A stretch of 64,000 nucleotides of DNA, taken from NCBI RefSeq assembly GCF_004328075.1, contig NZ_SJFN01000011.1, positions 62,001 to 126,000 on the forward strand. The letters are read 5' to 3'. A model generated the notes under the pieces. The model ran no database searches, had not been told where the DNA came from, and was given only the letters and a program-made list of their open reading frames with translations. How positions within the stretch are numbered: position 1 is the stretch's first letter; each line of letters begins with the position of its first letter. The DNA comes from Siculibacillus lacustris. Lineage in GTDB: Bacteria > Pseudomonadota > Alphaproteobacteria > Rhizobiales > Ancalomicrobiaceae. The position numbers were made by a program, and so were the translations under genes. Shown here one piece after another: positions 9,103 to 62,893 of the stretch.

Positions 9103-10785
9103 GTGTCTATCAACAACATTTCAATCGCCATGAAGATCTTGTCCGCCTTCGGGCTCGTCCTCGCCGCCAACATCGTCACCGGCGGTGCCGTTCTCTATTC
9201 CAATACGAATGTGGAAAAGAACGTCGGGTGGACGGTCCACACCTATCAGGTCTTGGAACAGACCGACCGCATGATGGCGTCGATGGTCGATCAGGAAACC
9301 GGCCTGCGCGGCTTTCTGATCACCGGCAAGGACGCCAACCTCGACCCGCTGCGAGCTGGCGAGAAGACCTTCGGCGAGTCCTGGAGCAAGATGAAGTCCC
9401 TGACGAGCGACAATCCGGCTCAGCAGACGCGGCTCGACGAGATCCGCAGGGAAGTCGACGAGTGGCAGCGCACCGTCGCCCACACCGCGATCGATCTGAT
9501 GAACAAGCCGGGCTCGGAAGACGCGGCGCGCGAGATCGAGCGCTCCGGCAAGGGCAAGAAGAACTTCGATCAGATTCGCGCCGGCGTCGCCGAGGTCAAG
9601 AACGCCGAGTCCTCGCTCCTCGGCGCCCGCAGCGACGCCATGGCGTCGGCTCAATCGACCATCGTCTATTCGGTCGTCCTGTCGATCGTCGCCGGTCTGG
9701 TCTTGGCGATCGGGGCGGCTTTGGCGTTGAACAAACTCGTCGCCGCCCCGATCCGCACCACCGTCGGCATCATGGACCGGCTGCGCAGCGGCGACTATGC
9801 GGCTGCGATCTCCGGGACCGAGCGAAAGGACGAAATCGGCCTGATGAGCAACGCGCTCCTCGCCTTCCGCGACGGCTTGGCGGCGGCCGAGCAGACCCGG
9901 AAGGAGCAGGCGGCGCGCGAAGCGGCCGAGCGGCAGGCACTCGCCCGGCGCGAGAAGCTCGCCTCCGACTTCGTCGGGCGGATGCAGGGGCTCGCCAGCG
10001 GCTTTGCTCAATCGTCGGGCGAAGTCGCCGACGCCGCCAAGAACCTCTCGGCCACGGCGGAAGAAACCTCGCGACAGGCGCAGTCGGTCGCCGCGGCGGC
10101 CGAACAGGCGGCCTCCAACGTCCAGACCGTCTCGGCGGCGTCCGAAGAAATGGCTGCTTCGGTGCGCGAGATCGGCTCCCAAGTCGGCCACTCGGCACGG
10201 GTCGCCGATACCGCCTTCTCGGAAGCCGAGACCTCGAACGTTCGCATCGGAGCGCTCGCCACGGCGGCCTCGGCGATCGGCGACGTCGTCAACCTGATTT
10301 CCAACATCGCCGCACAGACCAATCTCCTCGCGCTCAATGCGACGATCGAGGCGGCGCGCGCGGGCGAGGCCGGAAAGGGCTTCGCCGTCGTCGCCGCCGA
10401 GGTCAAGCAACTCGCCGACCAGACGTCGAAGGCGACCGGCGAGATCGGAGCCAAGGTCCAGGAGATCCAGAAGGCGACCGGCGAGAGCGTCGCCTCGATG
10501 AGCGAAATCGTCCGGGTCGTCGCCGACATCAAGCAGATCTCGTCGGCGATCGCAGGAGCCGTCGAAGAACAGGGCGCGGCGACCGCCGAAATCGCCCGCA
10601 ACTGCCAACAGGCGGCGAGCGGGACGCAGCAGGTCACCGAGAACATCTCCGGCGTCGGTCACGCGGCGGAAATGACCGGGACCGCCTCGACCCAGTTGAT
10701 GACGCTGTCGACGGGGCTTTCGGGACAGGCGGTCGACCTCCGGCATGTGGTCGAGAGCTTCGTCAAGGATTTCGCTGCGGCCTGA
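9103..10785 (+). CDS. Methyl-accepting chemotaxis protein (CHASE3-like sensor)
   Basis: Transmembrane chemoreceptor of 560 aa that signals through CheA/CheW. It starts at a GTG (9103) behind a GGGGAAAC site. A first membrane helix lies at about residues 9-30. The periplasmic helical domain contains [20 protein letters not shown], the typical CHASE3-type block. A second helix is at about 185-210, then a HAMP domain and a long cytoplasmic coiled coil. The hairpin tip is recognisable in [20 protein letters not shown] followed by [15 protein letters not shown]. No C-terminal CheR-docking pentapeptide is seen. It stands alone with no che genes nearby; a hairpin terminator follows. Its signalling domain closely resembles that of the receptor at 20305, so the two are paralogues with different sensor domains. 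Confidence 0.95.
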
Positions 10786-12157: not shown

Positions 12158-12501
12158 CTGCACGATTCCTCGATCCGCCACGGGAGATATCGATCAATAT
12201 CGATTCAAAGACTTTCGTTTTCATGAAAGCGACTGTCGGGACGCGCGAATTGATCTGGGAACCATCTTGGTTTCGCGCGATCGCGCCGCCGCCCGGGGTT
12301 CGATCGACCGTCGCGCCGCCGGAATCGTCGCGCGCGGGCGCTGCAGATACCTGCCCGCAGGGCGCGCGCTCGCCCAGGTCTCGCCGTGTTCGGCCGTCAT
12401 CCTCGGTTGGACATCAGGAAAAGCCCGTGTTTCAATCACACGGCGACGATCACCGGGGCGGGTTCCCTTCGCCGCCGATCGTGGAACGGGGAGGTTTGGC
12501 C
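12158..12501. other. Divergent promoter region
   Basis: Lies between the minus-strand membrane-protein gene and the plus-strand DUF4280 gene. Bases 12185-12235 are AT-rich, with two ATCGAT-type repeats and a short CTTTC/GAAAG inverted repeat, a plausible promoter for the minus-strand gene. A ribosome site GGGGAGG at 12488-12494 serves the plus-strand gene. No coding frame is convincing. Confidence 0.5.
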
Positions 12502-12894
12502 GTGCCGGTACCCGAAGTCACCCATGGTGCGATGCTCATGTGTTCGTTCGGCGCGGCGCCGTCGTCGCTGGTGGTCCTGCCGGTCAACCGGGTGTTGGTC
12601 GAAGGCCCGCCGGGGGCCAACATCAACGACCACGTTCCGATGGTGAACATCATGCCCTTCGGCGTGTGCATGACGCCGAGCAATCCGGCCGTGGCCGCCG
12701 CGACGACCGCCGCCTTGGGGGTGCTGACGCCGATGCCCTGCATCCCGGTCACGCCGTCGCCGTGGACGCCGGGCGGCGTCACCGTCAATCTCGGACCGGT
12801 GCCGGTGCTCGATCAGCCCTCGGTCTGCATGTGCACCTGGGGCGGCGTCATCACCATCGCCTTCGCCGCGACCACCCACACGCTGGTGCCCTGA
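12502..12894 (+). CDS. DUF4280 / PAAR-like protein
   Basis: A 130-aa protein matching the DUF4280 (PAAR-like) family over its full length. Hallmarks are THGAMLMCSFGAAPS at the N-terminus, HVPMVNIMPFGVCM in the middle, the LTPMPCIPVTP block, and CMCTWGGVITI near the C-terminus, with the family's conserved cysteines. I chose the GTG at 12502 because GGGGAGG lies 7 bases upstream and the family begins just here; an upstream ATG at 12223 would add an unrelated 93-residue tail. Such proteins are thought to cap secretion spikes (type VI or related) or to sit next to toxins. Here no VgrG, Hcp, toxin or immunity gene is in sight, so it is an orphan in this window. Confidence 0.88.
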   Translation: MPVPEVTHGAMLMCSFGAAPSSLVVLPVNRVLVEGPPGANINDHVPMVNIMPFGVCMTPSNPAVAAATTAALGVLTPMPCIPVTPSPWTPGGVTVNLGPVPVLDQPSVCMCTWGGVITIAFAATTHTLVP

Positions 12895-12932
12895 ACGCCA
12901 CGCCGGATCACGACCGTTCGAATCGCGATGCG

Positions 12933-12956
12933 GCGGCCGAGCCCGGGCTCGGCCGC
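12933..12956. terminator. Perfect palindrome between convergent genes
   Basis: Perfect 24-bp palindrome GCGGCCGAGCCC / GGGCTCGGCCGC in the 93-bp gap between convergent stop codons. As RNA it forms a strong hairpin on either strand, so it probably serves as a bidirectional terminator although T-runs are absent. Confidence 0.6.
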
Positions 12957-12987
12957 ACGCCTGTCGTCTCGCTGCGGACCGCCGGCG

Positions 12988-15987
12988 TCACAGCAGCCCG
13001 GGTTTGCCGGCCTTCCAGCGGGCAAATTCGGTGGTCAGCAGATCGACGTGTTCGCGTTCCTCCGCCGCCAGCTCGAGGTAGAGCTGATGCTCCGGCGCGC
13101 CTTGCGGGGCCGCCGCGCTGCGCTCGGCGAAGAACGCCACCGCCCGCTTCTCGAGGCCGATCGCCGTCTGGAACAGCATCGCCGGATCGTCCGGCGAGCC
13201 GGCCACGCCGCTGTAGAGCGAGAGGACCTCGAGCTTCAACGTGTCGGAACTCTCCGGCACGGTGGCGTGATAGCGGCGCGACAGCGTCCGCATGTGCTCG
13301 TCTTCCATGTCGGCGAAGCGGAAGAAAAGGTCCTTCAGGATCGGATCGGCGGAGCGTTCGGCGGCACGGCGATAGAAGGCCCGGCCGCCCAGTTCGATCT
13401 CGAAGGCGGTTCGGATCGCCGTGATCGCCTCGGCGTTCTCGGCGATGCGGGGCGAGCGCACGTCGAGCCGGCCGCCGCAGTGCGGGCAGGAGCCATAGGG
13501 GAAGGCGAAGCCTTCCGAGACCTTGCCGCAGTCCTGGCAGCGCCATTCCAGCGTCTCTTCGGCGCAGCAGATGTAGCTCTCGGTGCCTTCGAGCGGCCGA
13601 TGGCACTTGGGGCAGAGAGCTGCGACCGCCGCCTCCGTCGGGGCCTCGGCGTCCTCCTCCTCCTCGTCTTCGGCCGGTTTGCCGAAGCGCGCGGCGACGT
13701 GTTCGGCGCGGATCGGCCACACCGACTTGCCGCCCTCGAGCCAAGTGGTGATCGCCTTGGCGGCGCGCCGCCCGGCGCCCATCGCCAGAATGACGGTGGC
13801 GCCGCCGGTGACGATGTCGCCGCCGGCGAAGACGCCGGGGAGGGTGGTCGCCTGGGTCTCGTCGTCGGCGACGATGTAGCCCCATTTGTTGAGGCCGAGC
13901 CCCGGCGTCGCCTGACCGATGATCGGGTTGGCGTTGGTGCCCAGCGCGTAGATCACCGTGTCGCAGTCGAGCTCGACGAATTCGTCGACCGGGATCGGCT
14001 TGCGCCGGCCCTTCTCGTCGGGCTCGCCGAGTTCCATCCTCTGGACGCGCATGCCGCGGACCTCGCCCTCGGCATCGACCCGGATCTCCACCGGCGAATG
14101 CAGGAAGTGGAAATCGATGCCCTCTTCCTTGGCGTGGCGCAGTTCCTCGATACGCGCCGGCGCCTCCGCTTCCGAGCGGCGGTAGACGCAGCGCACGGTC
14201 GGCACCCCGAGCCGCTTGGAGACGCGCAGGCAGTCCATCGCGGTGTTGCCGGCGCCGATCACCACGACGCTCTTGCCGACGCTGATCGGCGTGTCGAGGA
14301 ACGGGAAGCGGTCGCCGCCCATCAGATTGACGCGGGTCAGGAACTCGTTGGCCGAATAGACCCGGCCGGCGTGTTCGCCGGGAATGCCGAGGAACGACGG
14401 CGCCCCGGCGCCGGCGGCGACGAACACCGCGTCGAAGCCCTTCTCCTCCATCAGCTGCGGCACGGTGAAGGTCTTGCCGATGACCTTGTTGGTCTCGAAG
14501 TGGACGCCGACGTCCTTCAGCCGCTCGACCTCGCGGTCGATGATGTCGCGCGGCAGGCGGAACGACGGAATGCCGTAGCGCAGCACCCCGCCGACCACGT
14601 GCAGGGCCTCGTAGACCGTGACCTCGGCGCCGAAGCGGGCGAGATCGGCCGCAGCCCCCAGGCCGCCGGGGCCGGAGCCGACCACCGCCACCTTGCCGAG
14701 GCGTCCGGCACCGATCGGCGGACGCGCCTTGGGCGGACGGGCATGGTCGCCGACGAAGCGTTCGAGCCGACCGATCGCCACCGGCTCGAGCTTGCGGCCG
14801 ATCACGCACTGCGCTTCGCACTGGCTCTCCTGCGGGCAGACGCGGCCGCAGATCGACGGGAAGATCGACGATTCGTAGATCGTCGCGATCGCCGATTCGA
14901 GATCGCGGACCAGCAGGTTGCGGATGAAGCCGGGGATGTCGATGCCGACCGGGCAGCCGGCGACGCAGGTCGGATTGCGGCACTGCATGCAGCGCTCGGC
15001 CTCGGCATAGGCGTCTTCCATGCTGTAGCCGAGGTTGACCTCCTTGAAGTTGGTCGCGCGCTCGGCCGGATTGCGCTCCGGCATCGGATGCTGATGCGGG
15101 GCGATCTGGGTGATCTTGCGGAACGGCCGCTTGCCCTCGCCGATCAGCTGCTTCTCGAGATTGCAGACGTGGGCGTAATCGGCGTTGGCCGCGTCTTCCT
15201 CGGTCTTGAAGCGCTTCTGGCGCGCCTTCAACTCGACGAAGTCGACCGCATGGCCGTCGAAGTCGGGGCCGTCGACGCAGGCGAACTTGACCGCGCCGGC
15301 GACCGTGACGCGGCAGGAGCCGCACATGCCGGTGCCGTCGACCATGATGGTGTTGAGCGACACCATGGTCTTGACGCCGAAGGCGCGGGTGACCTCGACG
15401 CAGGCGTGCATCATCGGCAAGGGGCCGATGGCGATCACCAGATCCGGCGGATCGCGCTCGAGCACGTCCTTCAGCGCGTCGGTGACGAAGCCCGGACGGC
15501 CGTAGCTGCCGTCGTCGGTGCACAGGATCAGCTCGTCGCTCTCGGCGCGGAAGCGGTCCTCCCAGAACACCAGATCGCGGTTGCGGAAGCCCATGATCGA
15601 GGTGGTGCGATTGCCGGCCGCCTTGAAGGCGCGCAGTTGCGGGAACACCGGCGCGACGCCGAGGCCGCCGCCGACCAGCACCACGTGGCCGACCTTGGCG
15701 ACGTGCTGCGGCAGGCCGAGCGGCCCGACGAAATCGTCGAAGTCGTCGCCCTCGCGGTAGTCGTCGCGCATCTCCCGGGTGGTCTTGCCCAGCGCCTGGA
15801 CGACGATGGTGACGGTGCCCTTGTCGCGGTCGTAGTCGGCGACGGTCAGCGGAATACGCTCGCCGCCGTCGTAGAGCCGGGCCATGACGAAATGGCCGGG
15901 CTGCGCGGCACGGGCGACGTCGGGGGCGAGAACCTCCCAGAGAAACGAGGTCTCGGAAAATTGTTCACGGCGGACGATCGGATACAT
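12988..15987 (-). CDS. NfnA/NfnB-like flavoprotein fused to a zinc-ribbon rubrerythrin domain
   Basis: A 999-aa fusion of three modules. Residues 1 to about 285 match the FAD/NAD(P)-binding small subunit of NfnAB/SudAB-type oxidoreductases, with a [2Fe-2S] block DGTGMCGSCRVTVAG followed by KFACVDGP. Residues about 290-755 match the GltD-like large subunit: Cys motifs CMQCRNPTCVAGCPV and CGRVCPQESQCEAQC for two [4Fe-4S] clusters, then GSGPGGLGAAADLARFGAEV and GAGNTAMDCLR nucleotide-binding folds. After an acidic linker, residues 792-844 carry CxxC knuckles (CPKC, CQDC, CPHC), and 845-999 a four-helix ferritin-like domain with two ExxH motifs (EDEH, EREH), so a complete diiron site. It probably moves electrons between NAD(P)H pools or to the diiron centre for peroxide or O2 reduction. 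It stands alone, with no partner gene. Confidence 0.88.
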   Translation of the reverse strand: MYPIVRREQFSETSFLWEVLAPDVARAAQPGHFVMARLYDGGERIPLTVADYDRDKGTVTIVVQALGKTTREMRDDYREGDDFDDFVGPLGLPQHVAKVGHVVLVGGGLGVAPVFPQLRAFKAAGNRTTSIMGFRNRDLVFWEDRFRAESDELILCTDDGSYGRPGFVTDALKDVLERDPPDLVIAIGPLPMMHACVEVTRAFGVKTMVSLNTIMVDGTGMCGSCRVTVAGAVKFACVDGPDFDGHAVDFVELKARQKRFKTEEDAANADYAHVCNLEKQLIGEGKRPFRKITQIAPHQHPMPERNPAERATNFKEVNLGYSMEDAYAEAERCMQCRNPTCVAGCPVGIDIPGFIRNLLVRDLESAIATIYESSIFPSICGRVCPQESQCEAQCVIGRKLEPVAIGRLERFVGDHARPPKARPPIGAGRLGKVAVVGSGPGGLGAAADLARFGAEVTVYEALHVVGGVLRYGIPSFRLPRDIIDREVERLKDVGVHFETNKVIGKTFTVPQLMEEKGFDAVFVAAGAGAPSFLGIPGEHAGRVYSANEFLTRVNLMGGDRFPFLDTPISVGKSVVVIGAGNTAMDCLRVSKRLGVPTVRCVYRRSEAEAPARIEELRHAKEEGIDFHFLHSPVEIRVDAEGEVRGMRVQRMELGEPDEKGRRKPIPVDEFVELDCDTVIYALGTNANPIIGQATPGLGLNKWGYIVADDETQATTLPGVFAGGDIVTGGATVILAMGAGRRAAKAITTWLEGGKSVWPIRAEHVAARFGKPAEDEEEEDAEAPTEAAVAALCPKCHRPLEGTESYICCAEETLEWRCQDCGKVSEGFAFPYGSCPHCGGRLDVRSPRIAENAEAITAIRTAFEIELGGRAFYRRAAERSADPILKDLFFRFADMEDEHMRTLSRRYHATVPESSDTLKLEVLSLYSGVAGSPDDPAMLFQTAIGLEKRAVAFFAERSAAAPQGAPEHQLYLELAAEEREHVDLLTTEFARWKAGKPGLL

Positions 15988-16248
15988 CGACTTCCCCTGC
16001 AGTTCGTCGCGGTGTCGGCCCGGACGTGAGATCGCGGCGAGGGCCGCGGTCGGAACGCTCGATGATTACTCGTCTCGGCGCTTCGGTGCGACACAGATGG
16101 GCACCGTCCGTAGGCGTGCGTATTCGGTTCGTCGCGCCGAAGCGATGGCCGCCCCCGCGACCCGTCGTCGCGCCGCGTCGCCGGCGGTTCGGCGAGACGG
16201 TCGCCGACGGCGAGGCCGAGGCCCCGTCGTCGGCCGTGATCGGAGGCG

Positions 16249-19844: not shown

Positions 19845-20304
19845 GGCCAAACTGCTATCGCAGTTTAGCAGTCTGCGCCATCGGTAGTTCCTCGGGCCGG
19901 CCGAAATTCGTTGCTGCAGGGCAGCATTCGGGCGGCCGACCACTTGGTCGCGCAGCGGTCGATCTCGGCATCGCGGTGATGCCGGAGGATTCGTCCCCCC
20001 CGGTCGGTCGGTCGCGCCCGATGGCCTTCACAGAAGACTTCCGCGGCGTAATAAAGACGGCGTATTCCCGAATGATTTGTTCGTTGGAATTCGGTCATTC
20101 TGCGTAGAGCGCGTCCCATGACGACGCATCTCGCGTCTGAAATTCTCTCGAGAGGCACAATTCGCCGGTTCATTCGATCGAATTCATGCGAATTCAACCG
20201 GTTCATTTCGGGTGATCGCGATTGGTTAATCGAAAATTAATTCCGCGCTCCCAGCGTGCCATCGACGCCGCGTCGAATGAATGTGCGTCCGGGGGAATAA
20301 TTCG
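19845..20304. other. Divergent intergenic region, GntR gene and second chemoreceptor
   Basis: About 460 bp. The left edge holds the operator-like palindrome. Bases 20040-20290 are AT-richer than the surroundings and probably carry the chemoreceptor promoter. A minus-strand frame at 19865-20206 (113 codons) has no ribosome site and an atypical composition, so it is not called. Confidence 0.5.
19849..19872 (-). promoter_or_regulatory. Operator-like palindrome at the GntR gene start
   Basis: Perfect inverted repeat AAACTGC-TATC-GCAGTTT (19849-19866), nested with ACTGCT / AGCAGT (19851-19856 and 19867-19872). It lies only 5 bases upstream of the regulator's ATG, as expected for autorepression by an FCD-type GntR protein. 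Confidence 0.55.
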
Positions 20305-22002
20305 ATGTCGTTCAAAAATTGGCCGATGATCTGGAAGGTCGTCAGCCTGCTTCTGTTGCTCGCAACCGTGGGTCTCGGCGGGGCGGTCTATTCCGGATCG
20401 CAGATGCGGGCGATCAGCGGCAGCTACGTGGCGCTCCTCGACGGACCGAGCCAGGCGGTGCTGGCGCTGGCGCGGGCCGGCCGTCTGATCTACCAGACCG
20501 AAGTGGCGATCTACCGTGACGCCGTGGCGACCTCCGACGCCGACAACGCCGCGGCCGCCAAGGCCTTCGCCGAGGCCCGGCAAGGGTTCAAGGACCGGAT
20601 CGCCGAAGCCATGAAGTTCGCCCCGATCCAAAGCACTGCCATGGCCGCGGTCGGCCGCTCTTTCGAGTCGACGCTGGACGGCGCCTGCGGCGAGACCATC
20701 CGGCTCTCGCGGGCGGCGACCGACGCGACATCGGTCGGCAAGGCGGCGGCGGCGATGCAGTCCACCTGCGCGCCGGCACTCGAAGAGGTCTTCGGTCAGG
20801 CGGCCAAGGTCTATGGCGAACTCGCCAAATTCCTCGAGGCGGAGTCCGCGGTCGCCCAACGGAAAGTCACCTTCGCCGTGACCCTGACCATCGCTCTGAT
20901 CGCCATCGGCACCATGTCGGTGATCGGCCTCGCCGTGGTTCTGGTGCGCGGTCGCCTGGTGGTGCCGATCCGTCGGATGATGGGCACGATGGCCGCGATG
21001 GGTCACGGGGACCTCGGGACCGCCGTCGACGGCACCGAGCGCCTCGACGAGGTCGGCGCCATCGCCAAGACGCTCGAAGTGCTGCGCGGTCAGCTCGGCG
21101 CGGCCGAACTTGCGCGCGTCGAACAGGCGCGGGCCGACGCGGCGGCGCGGGAGATGACGGCGAAGCGGGCGAAGCTCGCCGACGCCTTCGTCGCTCGCAT
21201 GCAGGCGCTCGCCGCCGGTTTCGCCCATTCCTCGGGCGACGTCGCCGACGCCGCCAAGAATTTGTCGGTGACGGCAGAGGAGACCTCGCGCCAGGCGCAG
21301 GCGGTGGCGTCCGCTGCGGAAGAAGCCGCCACCAACGTCCAGACCGTGGCCGCCTCCTCGGAGGAACTCGCCGCCTCGGTCCACGAGATCAACGGTCAGG
21401 TGACCCATTCGGCCCAGGTCGCCGACAGCGCCTTCACCGAGGCCGAAGCCTCCAACTCGCGCATCGCCGCGCTCGCCACCGCCGCCGCGGCGATCGGCGA
21501 CGTGGTCAACCTGATCAAGGGCATCGCCGACCAGACCAACCTGCTCGCCCTCAACGCGACGATCGAAGCCGCGCGCGCCGGCGAGGCCGGCAAGGGCTTC
21601 GCCGTGGTCGCCTCCGAAGTGAAGCAGCTGGCGGCGCAGACGACCAGCGCCACCGGCGAGATCTCGTCGAAGGTCGCCGAGATCCAGCAGGCGACGCAAG
21701 CGACGGTGCAGTCGATGGACGAGATCGTCCGGACCATCTCCAGCATGAAGGCGATCGCCGCGTCGATCGCCGGCGCGGTCGAGGAGCAGGGGGCCGCGAC
21801 CGACGAGATCGCCCACAACTGCCAGCGCGCCGCGCAAGGTACGGCCCAGGTGACCAGCAACATCGCCGGCGTCGGCCAAGCCGCGGAATCCACCGGCACC
21901 GCGTCGACGCAGCTGATGACCCTGTCGGGTGGTCTGGAGACCCAGGCATCGGAACTGCAGAGGACGGTCGAGAGCTTCGTCGTCGATCTGAAGTCGGCCT
22001 GA
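20305..22002 (+). CDS. Methyl-accepting chemotaxis protein (helical-bundle sensor)
   Basis: Chemoreceptor of 565 aa. The start at 20305 ([12 protein letters not shown]) follows GGGGGAA; an in-frame ATG 24 bases earlier lies upstream of that site. Membrane helices are at about 10-30 and 190-215. Between them is a periplasmic helical domain of about 155 residues with two cysteines (DGACGE, QSTCAP) that could form a disulfide; it resembles four-helix-bundle ligand domains, not CHASE3. HAMP follows at about 215-265, then the signalling coiled coil with the tip [20 protein letters not shown]. No CheR-docking tail is seen. The cytoplasmic part is closely similar to that of the receptor at 9103. It stands alone and ends at a bidirectional hairpin shared with tyrS. 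Confidence 0.95.
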
Positions 22003-61706: not shown

Positions 61707-62893
61707 GCGCGCCCCTGTCGATCTATGTGGTGGCCGGCGAAGCCTCGGGCGACGTGCTCGGCGCCCATCTCGCCGAGGCCCTGGCGCGGCGGCTCGGCGA
61801 CGGCGTGGTGTTCGCCGGGGTCGGCGGCCCGGCGATGGCGGCGGCGGGGATCGCCTCGCTGTTTCCCATGGCCGACATCGCGGTGATGGGCATCGGCCCG
61901 GTGCTGGCCCGCCTGCCGACCATCCTGCGGCGGATCCGCGAGACGGCGGAAGCCGCGATCGCCGCGCGCCCCGACGTGCTGGTGCTGATCGACAGTCCCG
62001 ACTTCTGCCACCGCGTCGCGGCGCGGGTGCGGCGGGCACGGCCCGATCAGAAGATCGTCCTGTGGGTGTCGCCGACGGTATGGGCGTGGCGGCCGGGGCG
62101 GGCGAAGAAGATCGCCAAGCTCGCCGATCGCCTGCTGGCACTCCTGCCCTTCGAGCCGGCGGTGCACGCCGTGCTCGGCGGCCCGCCGACCACCTATGTC
62201 GGCCATCCCTTCCTCGACGACCTCGCCGCGGTCCGCCCGGAGGGCGCCCGCGCGCTGCCGCGGCCCGGCGAACGGCCCTTGCGCATCGTCGTGCTGCCGG
62301 GCAGCCGGCGCTCGGAGATCTCGCGGCTGATGGCGCCGTTCGGCGCGGCCCTGGGGCGCGTCCAGGCGGCGCTGGGGCCGCTCGAGGTGACTTTGCCGGC
62401 GGTCGACCATCTCGCCGCCGAAATCGCCGCCAGGGCCGCCGAATGGCCGGTGACGCCGAACCTGGTCGCCGGGCGCGACGCCAAATATGCCGCCTTCCGT
62501 GACGCCGACGCGGCGCTCGCCGCTTCCGGCACGGTGACGCTCGAACTGGCGCTGGCCGGACTGCCGGCGGTCGCCGCCTATCGCCTCGACGCCCTCGGCC
62601 GGCTGGTGAAACACATGATCCGGGTGCCGGTGCCGGTCCAGCCGATCCTCACCGTGCGCTCGGTGCTGCTGCCCAATCTGATCGTCGGCGAGAAGGCGAT
62701 GCCCGAATTCATCGACGACGACTGCCGGCCCGACACGCTTGCCGCGGCGCTCGGCGCGCTGCTCGTCGACGGGCCGGAGCGCAACCGCCAGATCGAGGCC
62801 TTCGCGCGGCTCGAGGCGCGGATGCGCGCGGGCGTGCCCGGCAGCCCCGCCGACGCCGCGGCCGACGCCGTGCTCGAGGTCGCGGGACGCTGA
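61703..62893 (+). CDS. lpxB: Lipid-A-disaccharide synthase
   Basis: Family-19 glycosyltransferase of 396 aa joining UDP-diacylglucosamine and lipid X. VVAGEASGDVLGAHLAEALA near the start, VLIDSPDFCHRVAARVR, VLWVSPTVWAWRPGRAKKIA, YVGHPFLDDL, VLPGSRRSEISRLMAPF and ASGTVTLELALAGLP are all standard. It overlaps lpxI by ATGA and ends the lipid A cluster, convergent with gltA. Confidence 0.97.
   Translation: MSAPLSIYVVAGEASGDVLGAHLAEALARRLGDGVVFAGVGGPAMAAAGIASLFPMADIAVMGIGPVLARLPTILRRIRETAEAAIAARPDVLVLIDSPDFCHRVAARVRRARPDQKIVLWVSPTVWAWRPGRAKKIAKLADRLLALLPFEPAVHAVLGGPPTTYVGHPFLDDLAAVRPEGARALPRPGERPLRIVVLPGSRRSEISRLMAPFGAALGRVQAALGPLEVTLPAVDHLAAEIAARAAEWPVTPNLVAGRDAKYAAFRDADAALAASGTVTLELALAGLPAVAAYRLDALGRLVKHMIRVPVPVQPILTVRSVLLPNLIVGEKAMPEFIDDDCRPDTLAAALGALLVDGPERNRQIEAFARLEARMRAGVPGSPADAAADAVLEVAGR

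Follow-up and report, generated by a model that had tools for sequence, protein, structure and literature searches.

What is the role of a single bacterial chain that joins an Nfn-type transhydrogenase to a cysteine-rich and ferritin-like tail? Such a chain is encoded in Siculibacillus lacustris (assembly GCF_004328075.1), within positions 62,001 to 126,000 of contig NZ_SJFN01000011.1. This whole stretch of 64,000 nucleotides is referred to here as the window. The open reading frame (ORF) is located on the minus strand at 12988..15987, starts with ATG and encodes 999 residues. In our view there is about an even chance that the product is a single-chain Nfn-type transhydrogenase, which would use NADPH to reduce ferredoxin for oxygen-sensitive, ATP-dependent reductases, with a tail that would handle O2 or peroxide.

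We first consider the Nfn core, for which the nearest solved chains are Nfn subunits. Residues 1-261 (15205..15987, minus strand) form an NfnB/PyrK-like module for flavin adenine dinucleotide (FAD), NAD(H) and a [2Fe-2S] cluster, closest to the small subunit 5jca_S (302.8 bits). Residues 299-757 (13717..15093, minus strand) form an NfnA/GltD-like module with two [4Fe-4S] cysteine sets and folds for FAD and NADP(H), closest to the large subunit 4ylf_B (505.9 bits). Pfam domains above their gathering scores are DHODB_Fe-S_bind (212-249), Fer4_20 (310-417) and Pyr_redox_2 (432-738), with NAD_binding_1 remaining below its cut-off. An earlier note, made from the DNA letters alone, had described both modules in this chain, and both descriptions hold. 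The [2Fe-2S] residues D217, C222, C225 and C237 are invariant in all 38 Nfn-part sequences compared, and so are the eight [4Fe-4S] cysteines C333, C336, C341, C345, C380, C384, C390 and C394. We take these residues to be the cluster ligands, as in Nfn structures. The 38 sequences comprise the window and 37 of the 53 loci described below, the other loci being without an ORF match from before residue 50 to beyond residue 700.

The predicted model of the whole chain has a mean predicted local distance difference test score (pLDDT) of 72.0 and a predicted template modelling score (pTM) of 0.43. A fold search with this model ranks Nfn entries at the top, with template modelling scores to the query of about 0.3, which reflect the poor domain arrangement in the model. 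The fold alignments to 4ylf_B, 5jca_L, 5jfc_L and 5jca_S have 47-53% identity. The cofactor-ligand motifs of NfnAB/NfnI (4ylf, 5jca) align with those of the window protein; in contrast to it, these enzymes are made of two polypeptides and have no Cys4/diiron tail. That NfnAB is normally two subunits, as the earlier note had it, is true for most homologs, but fused Nfn is in print: a review describes three fused patterns (PMC6405883), and the words ferritin and rubrerythrin never occur in its main text. In three genomes of the same family without the fusion (G002:C43, G008:C175 and G009:C23), a GltD-like match is followed by an adjacent PyrK-like match, which is the order of the pattern C fused Nfn.

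The tail begins with a cysteine segment at residues 792-837 (13477..13614, minus strand), containing C792xxC795..C807C808 and a rubredoxin-like or zinc-ribbon C817xxC820..C834xxC837. It continues with a predicted four-helix ferritin-like domain at residues 851-999 (12991..13437, minus strand), with E865, E895xxH898, E946 and E977xxH980 as putative diiron ligands. The CxxC knuckles and the two ExxH motifs had already been recognised in the earlier note. Cysteines C792, C795, C807, C817, C820, C834 and C837 and the six putative ligands E865, E895, H898, E946, E977 and H980 show no variation across the 51 tail sequences, which come from the window and from 50 of the 53 loci (three are cut off). 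Because the loci were fetched by the patterns FADME[DQ]E or CPKCH[RQ]PL, the constancy of C792, C795 and E895 is in part a product of the search itself; none of the other residues is covered by a pattern.

The same note had called this domain rubrerythrin-type, which is correct in part. The Pfam domain Rubrerythrin (PF02915) matches residues 859-909 above its cut-off (24.9 bits, gathering score 22.8) and is found in all 51 members at E <= 0.05, and the tail has the E / ExxH / E / ExxH pattern of rubrerythrin-like diiron domains. With rubrerythrin and reverse rubrerythrin it shares a Cys4 segment and a four-helix diiron-type domain, and its W.C..CG...EG...P....CP.C motif resembles, by our reading, the rubredoxin segment of rubrerythrin. 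However, the place of rubrerythrin's seventh Glu ligand, which we take to be E97 of the D. vulgaris protein, is occupied by A949, an equivalence assumed from the helix motif, and this position is Ala in 51 of 51 sequences. For this reason a canonical rubrerythrin is ruled out. In profile searches the helical part is closest to 2fzf (E 5.4e-10) and 2oh3 (E 5.9e-7), both of COG1633, with rubrerythrin 1b71 reaching only E 0.33.

Modelled alone, the tail gives four helices with a pLDDT of 82.7 and a pTM of 0.77. Its fold matches are COG1633 proteins, ferritins and bacterioferritins, with a best Foldseek E of 1.9e-3, none reaching 0.001, and a best Z of 14.7. Such scores may be at the level that helical bundles reach by their common arrangement. 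The best 50 matches of each fold search include no chain described as rubrerythrin, which is uninformative by itself. As for the cysteine sites, the zinc-ribbon, rubredoxin and RUBY_RBDX matches of the window protein are all below Pfam cut-offs. Among the 51 members, Zn_ribbon_8 matches 17 and RUBY_RBDX 15, all weakly, and since these numbers are similar the sites could equally hold Fe or Zn.

The architecture itself is already catalogued, and what is new here is the gene context of the family. NCBIfam NF009413 (PRK12775) has the same parts in the same order and spans the chain from end to end (residues 1-999 against 1-1006 of 1006). The score of 1875.5 bits is 1% short of the curated cut-off of 1895. 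The window protein is thus homologous to the model throughout, judging from the alignment, yet not formally named by it. A categorically new architecture is therefore ruled out. The model is termed a putative trifunctional “2-polyprenylphenol hydroxylase / glutamate synthase beta / ferritin-domain protein”, a name without a tested function. NF009414 (PRK12778), a fused Nfn without the tail, aligns to residues 1-751 with 996.1 bits, below its cut-off of 1103. No paper describing the fusion was found in the open-access literature, subscription papers being outside this scope.

In terms of distribution, no full-length match is present in 60 relatives. Tail matches are found in 14 of 398 genomes of the phylum, the window's own included: this genome and G245 are strong, and 12 are weak (E 4e-6 to 9e-4). 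The pattern scan of a species-genome collection gave 53 loci, labelled mostly as Alphaproteobacteria and Betaproteobacteria, with few others. The one-chain form is present in 12 of them, one being truncated at its start. Most other loci that hold both parts have the Nfn part and the tail as two ORFs, which are adjacent genes: in 25 of 26 split loci, no more than 60 bp, in either direction, separate the start of the aligned tail region from the Nfn stop. A tree of the 38 Nfn parts requires three changes between fused and split forms, two of them forced by well-supported branches, and groups the window protein with Telmatospirillum and two metagenome-assembled genomes (MAGs). Spread on plasmids was considered and rejected, with no tail match by tblastn in a plasmid collection.

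The neighbourhood of the non-fused loci is rich in genes for aromatic-CoA metabolism. By tblastn, these 41 loci have matches to HcrA (13), HcrB (15), HcrC (14), a PaaK-like ligase (15) and a benzoate-ligase-like domain (28). These counts are lower bounds, as many contigs are short. For the neighbouring 4-hydroxybenzoyl-CoA reductase, representatives of the alpha and beta subunits (one each) are above NCBI cut-offs, with the gamma representative at 252.0 against 257.8; the PaaK-like ligase scores 581.6 against a cut-off of 646.3. An indolepyruvate:ferredoxin oxidoreductase (IOR) above cut-off is a neighbour at one locus, and subunits of the dimethyl sulfoxide reductase type near split genes are probably PadB/PadC. 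In Burkholderiales, the tail ORF often continues into an AMP-binding domain (an ORF cluster of 25 loci, two of them read). In L056:9998-12121 and L087:9995-12130, for example, the Cys-knuckle and diiron module is fused to a domain similar to benzoate, 3-hydroxybenzoate and anthranilate-CoA ligases. One scanned fusion is nearest to the 3-hydroxybenzoate and benzoate-CoA-ligase models, below their cut-offs, and its best counterparts among PDB chains are ligases for benzoate and anthranilate.

A similar picture is seen at the level of whole genomes. Among 50 carriers, HcrA is above cut-off in 28, benzoyl-CoA reductase B in 28, IOR in 35, NifH in 14 and RnfC in 5, the IOR and Rnf counts covering the carriers only, with no background. 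Among the 398 phylum genomes, HcrA and benzoyl-CoA reductase B are above cut-off in 2 each and NifH in 38. The two positives are the same genomes for both: G245 is one of the carriers, and G286 lacks a tail match. In Fisher tests the value is 1.5e-28 both for HcrA and for benzoyl-CoA reductase, and for NifH it is 6e-4; these values are descriptive, because the genomes compared are related to one another and the two sets were sampled in different ways. Of the 50 carriers, 45 have HcrA, benzoyl-CoA reductase or NifH above cut-off, and G452, G455, G487, G489 and G493 have none of the three. With RnfC so rare, another ferredoxin reducer is likely needed, and an Nfn-type chain would be a plausible source of reduced ferredoxin for benzoyl-CoA reductase and perhaps for nitrogenase. 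Nitrogenase as the specific client was rejected, since 15 of the 60 relatives, all lacking the fusion, also have NifH above cut-off, among them 10 of the 14 from the same family.

The published relative closest in role is AadN (RPA0678, WP_011156245) of Rhodopseudomonas palustris, a fused Nfn homolog of pattern B encoded near the hba genes (Lewis, Sarne and Fixen 2023, PMC9973337). AadN is required for growth on benzoate, under anaerobic conditions, and on 4-hydroxybenzoate, and not for growth on cyclohexane carboxylate; a mutated AadN is able to feed nitrogenase (PMC9973337). Its role in aromatic degradation is the role that gene context suggests here (PMC9973337). The aromatic link was drawn from gene context beforehand, and the AadN genetics strengthen the Nfn half of our reading. 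In the main text of the paper, the words ferritin, rubrerythrin and diiron never occur, the AadN sequence itself not having been compared (PMC9973337). If the numbering agrees, residue 38 differs: AadN has Cys (PMC9973337), and all 38 sequences compared here have Leu. The Rhodopseudomonas carriers at loci L061 and L065 have no benzoyl-CoA reductase match, and their fused gene is not beside Hcr genes. The benzoyl-CoA reductase expected for an AadN-type role is above cut-off in 28 of the 50 carrier genomes, and the window's own has no match to it.

Taken together, a possible mechanism can be proposed. It is known that Nfn catalyses 2 NADPH + NAD+ + Fd(ox) -> 2 NADP+ + NADH + Fd(red). The N-terminal 757 residues would most likely take electrons from NADPH and bifurcate them at the FAD of the large module, with one stream going to NAD+ and the other to a low-potential ferredoxin, or in the reverse direction. 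In relatives, the ferredoxin would feed ATP-dependent, oxygen-sensitive enzymes. For degraders of aromatics this would be benzoyl-CoA reductase, and for diazotrophic alphaproteobacteria, among them the organism of the window, it may be nitrogenase. The tail, with its Cys4 segment and presumed diiron site, would most likely be a built-in O2/H2O2 reductase or guard fed by the same chain, and the simplest role we can propose for it is to shield a pathway that is sensitive to oxygen. A bolder version, which we consider rather improbable, is that the tail is an oxygen gate that drains Nfn electrons at O2 or peroxide before low-potential ferredoxin forms. In Burkholderiales this gate would be tethered to an aryl-CoA ligase, so coupling substrate activation, ferredoxin supply and oxygen sensing for benzoyl-CoA reductase.

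Several observations weigh against this proposal. By tblastn, HcrA, HcrB, HcrC, PaaK and the ligase domain are all at 0 in the 12 fused loci. The 13 one-chain genomes have NifH in 12 and benzoyl-CoA reductase in only 3, and the nitrogenase link may be merely taxonomic given the fusion-free relatives with NifH. In the window's genome there is no match to benzoyl-CoA reductase B (TIGR02260) at E <= 1e-20, none to IOR at E <= 1e-100, and no HcrA above cut-off. The co-occurrence counts are not independent, given that the carriers share ancestry and include many MAGs of unknown completeness. The low pTM of the whole-chain model means that the electron path is not readable from it. Finally, no FNR-like site is found upstream of the window gene or of 11 fused loci, the best having 3-4 mismatches. 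Of the 30 Nfn ORFs, 7 are preceded by FNR-like boxes (at most 2 mismatches and a shuffle fraction of at most 0.03, uncorrected for 30 tests); all 7 belong to the 18 split ones, which fits low-oxygen expression of some split forms only and counts in favour of the proposal for these. For sigma-54 sites upstream of the same 30 genes, no best match is rarer than 0.2 in shuffles.

Much of this evidence can also be read in other ways. As a self-contained NAD(P)H peroxidase or oxidase, the chain would use its Nfn part mainly to reduce rubredoxin-like and diiron centres that destroy H2O2 or O2. The single-chain fusion, the Cys4 segment between reductase and diiron domain (the Cys4-first order is that of reverse rubrerythrin) and the invariant ligands agree with this, as do a hemerythrin-like gene and a second small rubrerythrin/ferritin-like gene (e.g. 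L073:13743-14237), each near 8 of the 41 non-fused loci (L073, L084, L098 and others). However, the missing seventh Glu weakens a rubrerythrin-like peroxidase reading, such an enzyme has no obvious need for an Nfn core with every cluster residue invariant, and the associations seen are with aromatic-CoA reduction, oxidative-stress genes not having been searched as a class. We regard this role as unlikely, if worth keeping in view. The earlier note had offered it beside a transhydrogenase with a protective centre, and gene context, which points to a ferredoxin-reducing role with an accessory diiron tail, is nearer to the latter. Slightly less probable still is a purely structural or iron-binding tail, in which zinc ribbons and a ferritin-like bundle serve oligomerisation or docking, for example to the CoA ligase, with no redox chemistry. 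The sub-threshold zinc-ribbon and rubredoxin matches, the fold matches to ferritins, bacterioferritins and COG1633, and the separate tail polypeptide of many genomes all suit this idea, but six invariant diiron ligands are more than structure alone would demand, and their invariance argues for redox or O2 chemistry.

The Burkholderiales ligase fusions, together with weak matches to COQ7 for 11 of the 51 tail sequences, raise the idea of an oxygenase or hydroxylase acting on aryl-CoA substrates, in which the diiron domain would be the catalytic part and the Nfn part would reduce it, similar to BoxA/BoxB. We find this very unlikely: no ligase sequence lies within the stretches of the 12 fused loci, and in carriers it is the anaerobic benzoyl-CoA reductase that is enriched, Box genes not having been searched for. 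A SudAB-type sulfide dehydrogenase, or a simple transhydrogenase that makes no use of ferredoxin, in either case with an unrelated tail, is given hardly any weight. AadN was annotated as a sulfide dehydrogenase, and bifurcating activity is not seen in every Nfn homolog (PMC9973337); against this stand the AadN genetics from the same source and the association with the ferredoxin-dependent benzoyl-CoA reductase.

It is an open question how bacteria that lack Rnf provide benzoyl-CoA reductase and nitrogenase with electrons of very low potential. The Nfn core, the conserved diiron-type tail and the linkage to aromatic-CoA genes make it directly testable in this family, which could explain how facultative bacteria sustain such chemistry near oxygen. 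What is ordinary here is the architecture, already catalogued, and the Nfn role, for which a relative has been published; the interest is in the tail, which as its own gene or fused to an aryl-CoA ligase ties a diiron-type fold to low-potential electron supply.

Regarding the wider surroundings, four fused loci of the Telmatospirillum group (L049, L050, L051 and L101) have nearby XdhC-like (4), MocA-like (3), SufS-like (4) and metal-transport-like (4) genes, which suggest molybdenum-hydroxylase maturation nearby. The window's genome has two NifH above cut-off and no RnfC, with one RnfC-like match at 209 bits against 246. FixABCX was not recognised by eye among the ORF starts of four stretches of 16-20 kb from this genome, two of them around nifH genes. 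Beside the nif genes, a small ORF (L102:12111-12707, minus strand), ferritin-like by reading, lies upstream of a nifH-like ORF at L102:13659.

In the window, an antisense ORF of 1033 residues (12928..16029, plus strand) overlaps the fusion ORF; homology is assigned to the minus frame, the antisense frame not having been searched. The gene sits 3' of genes for a major facilitator superfamily transporter and a D-2-hydroxyacid dehydrogenase, which tell little about its role. Adjoining it on the opposite strand (12223-12894, plus) is a DUF4280 protein (PF14107), presumably of the PAAR-like secretion family. Two further ORFs, at 9103-10785 and 20281-22002 (both plus strand), cluster with ORFs of loci L050 and L079 (cluster c34) and are, by eye, candidate methyl-accepting chemoreceptors.

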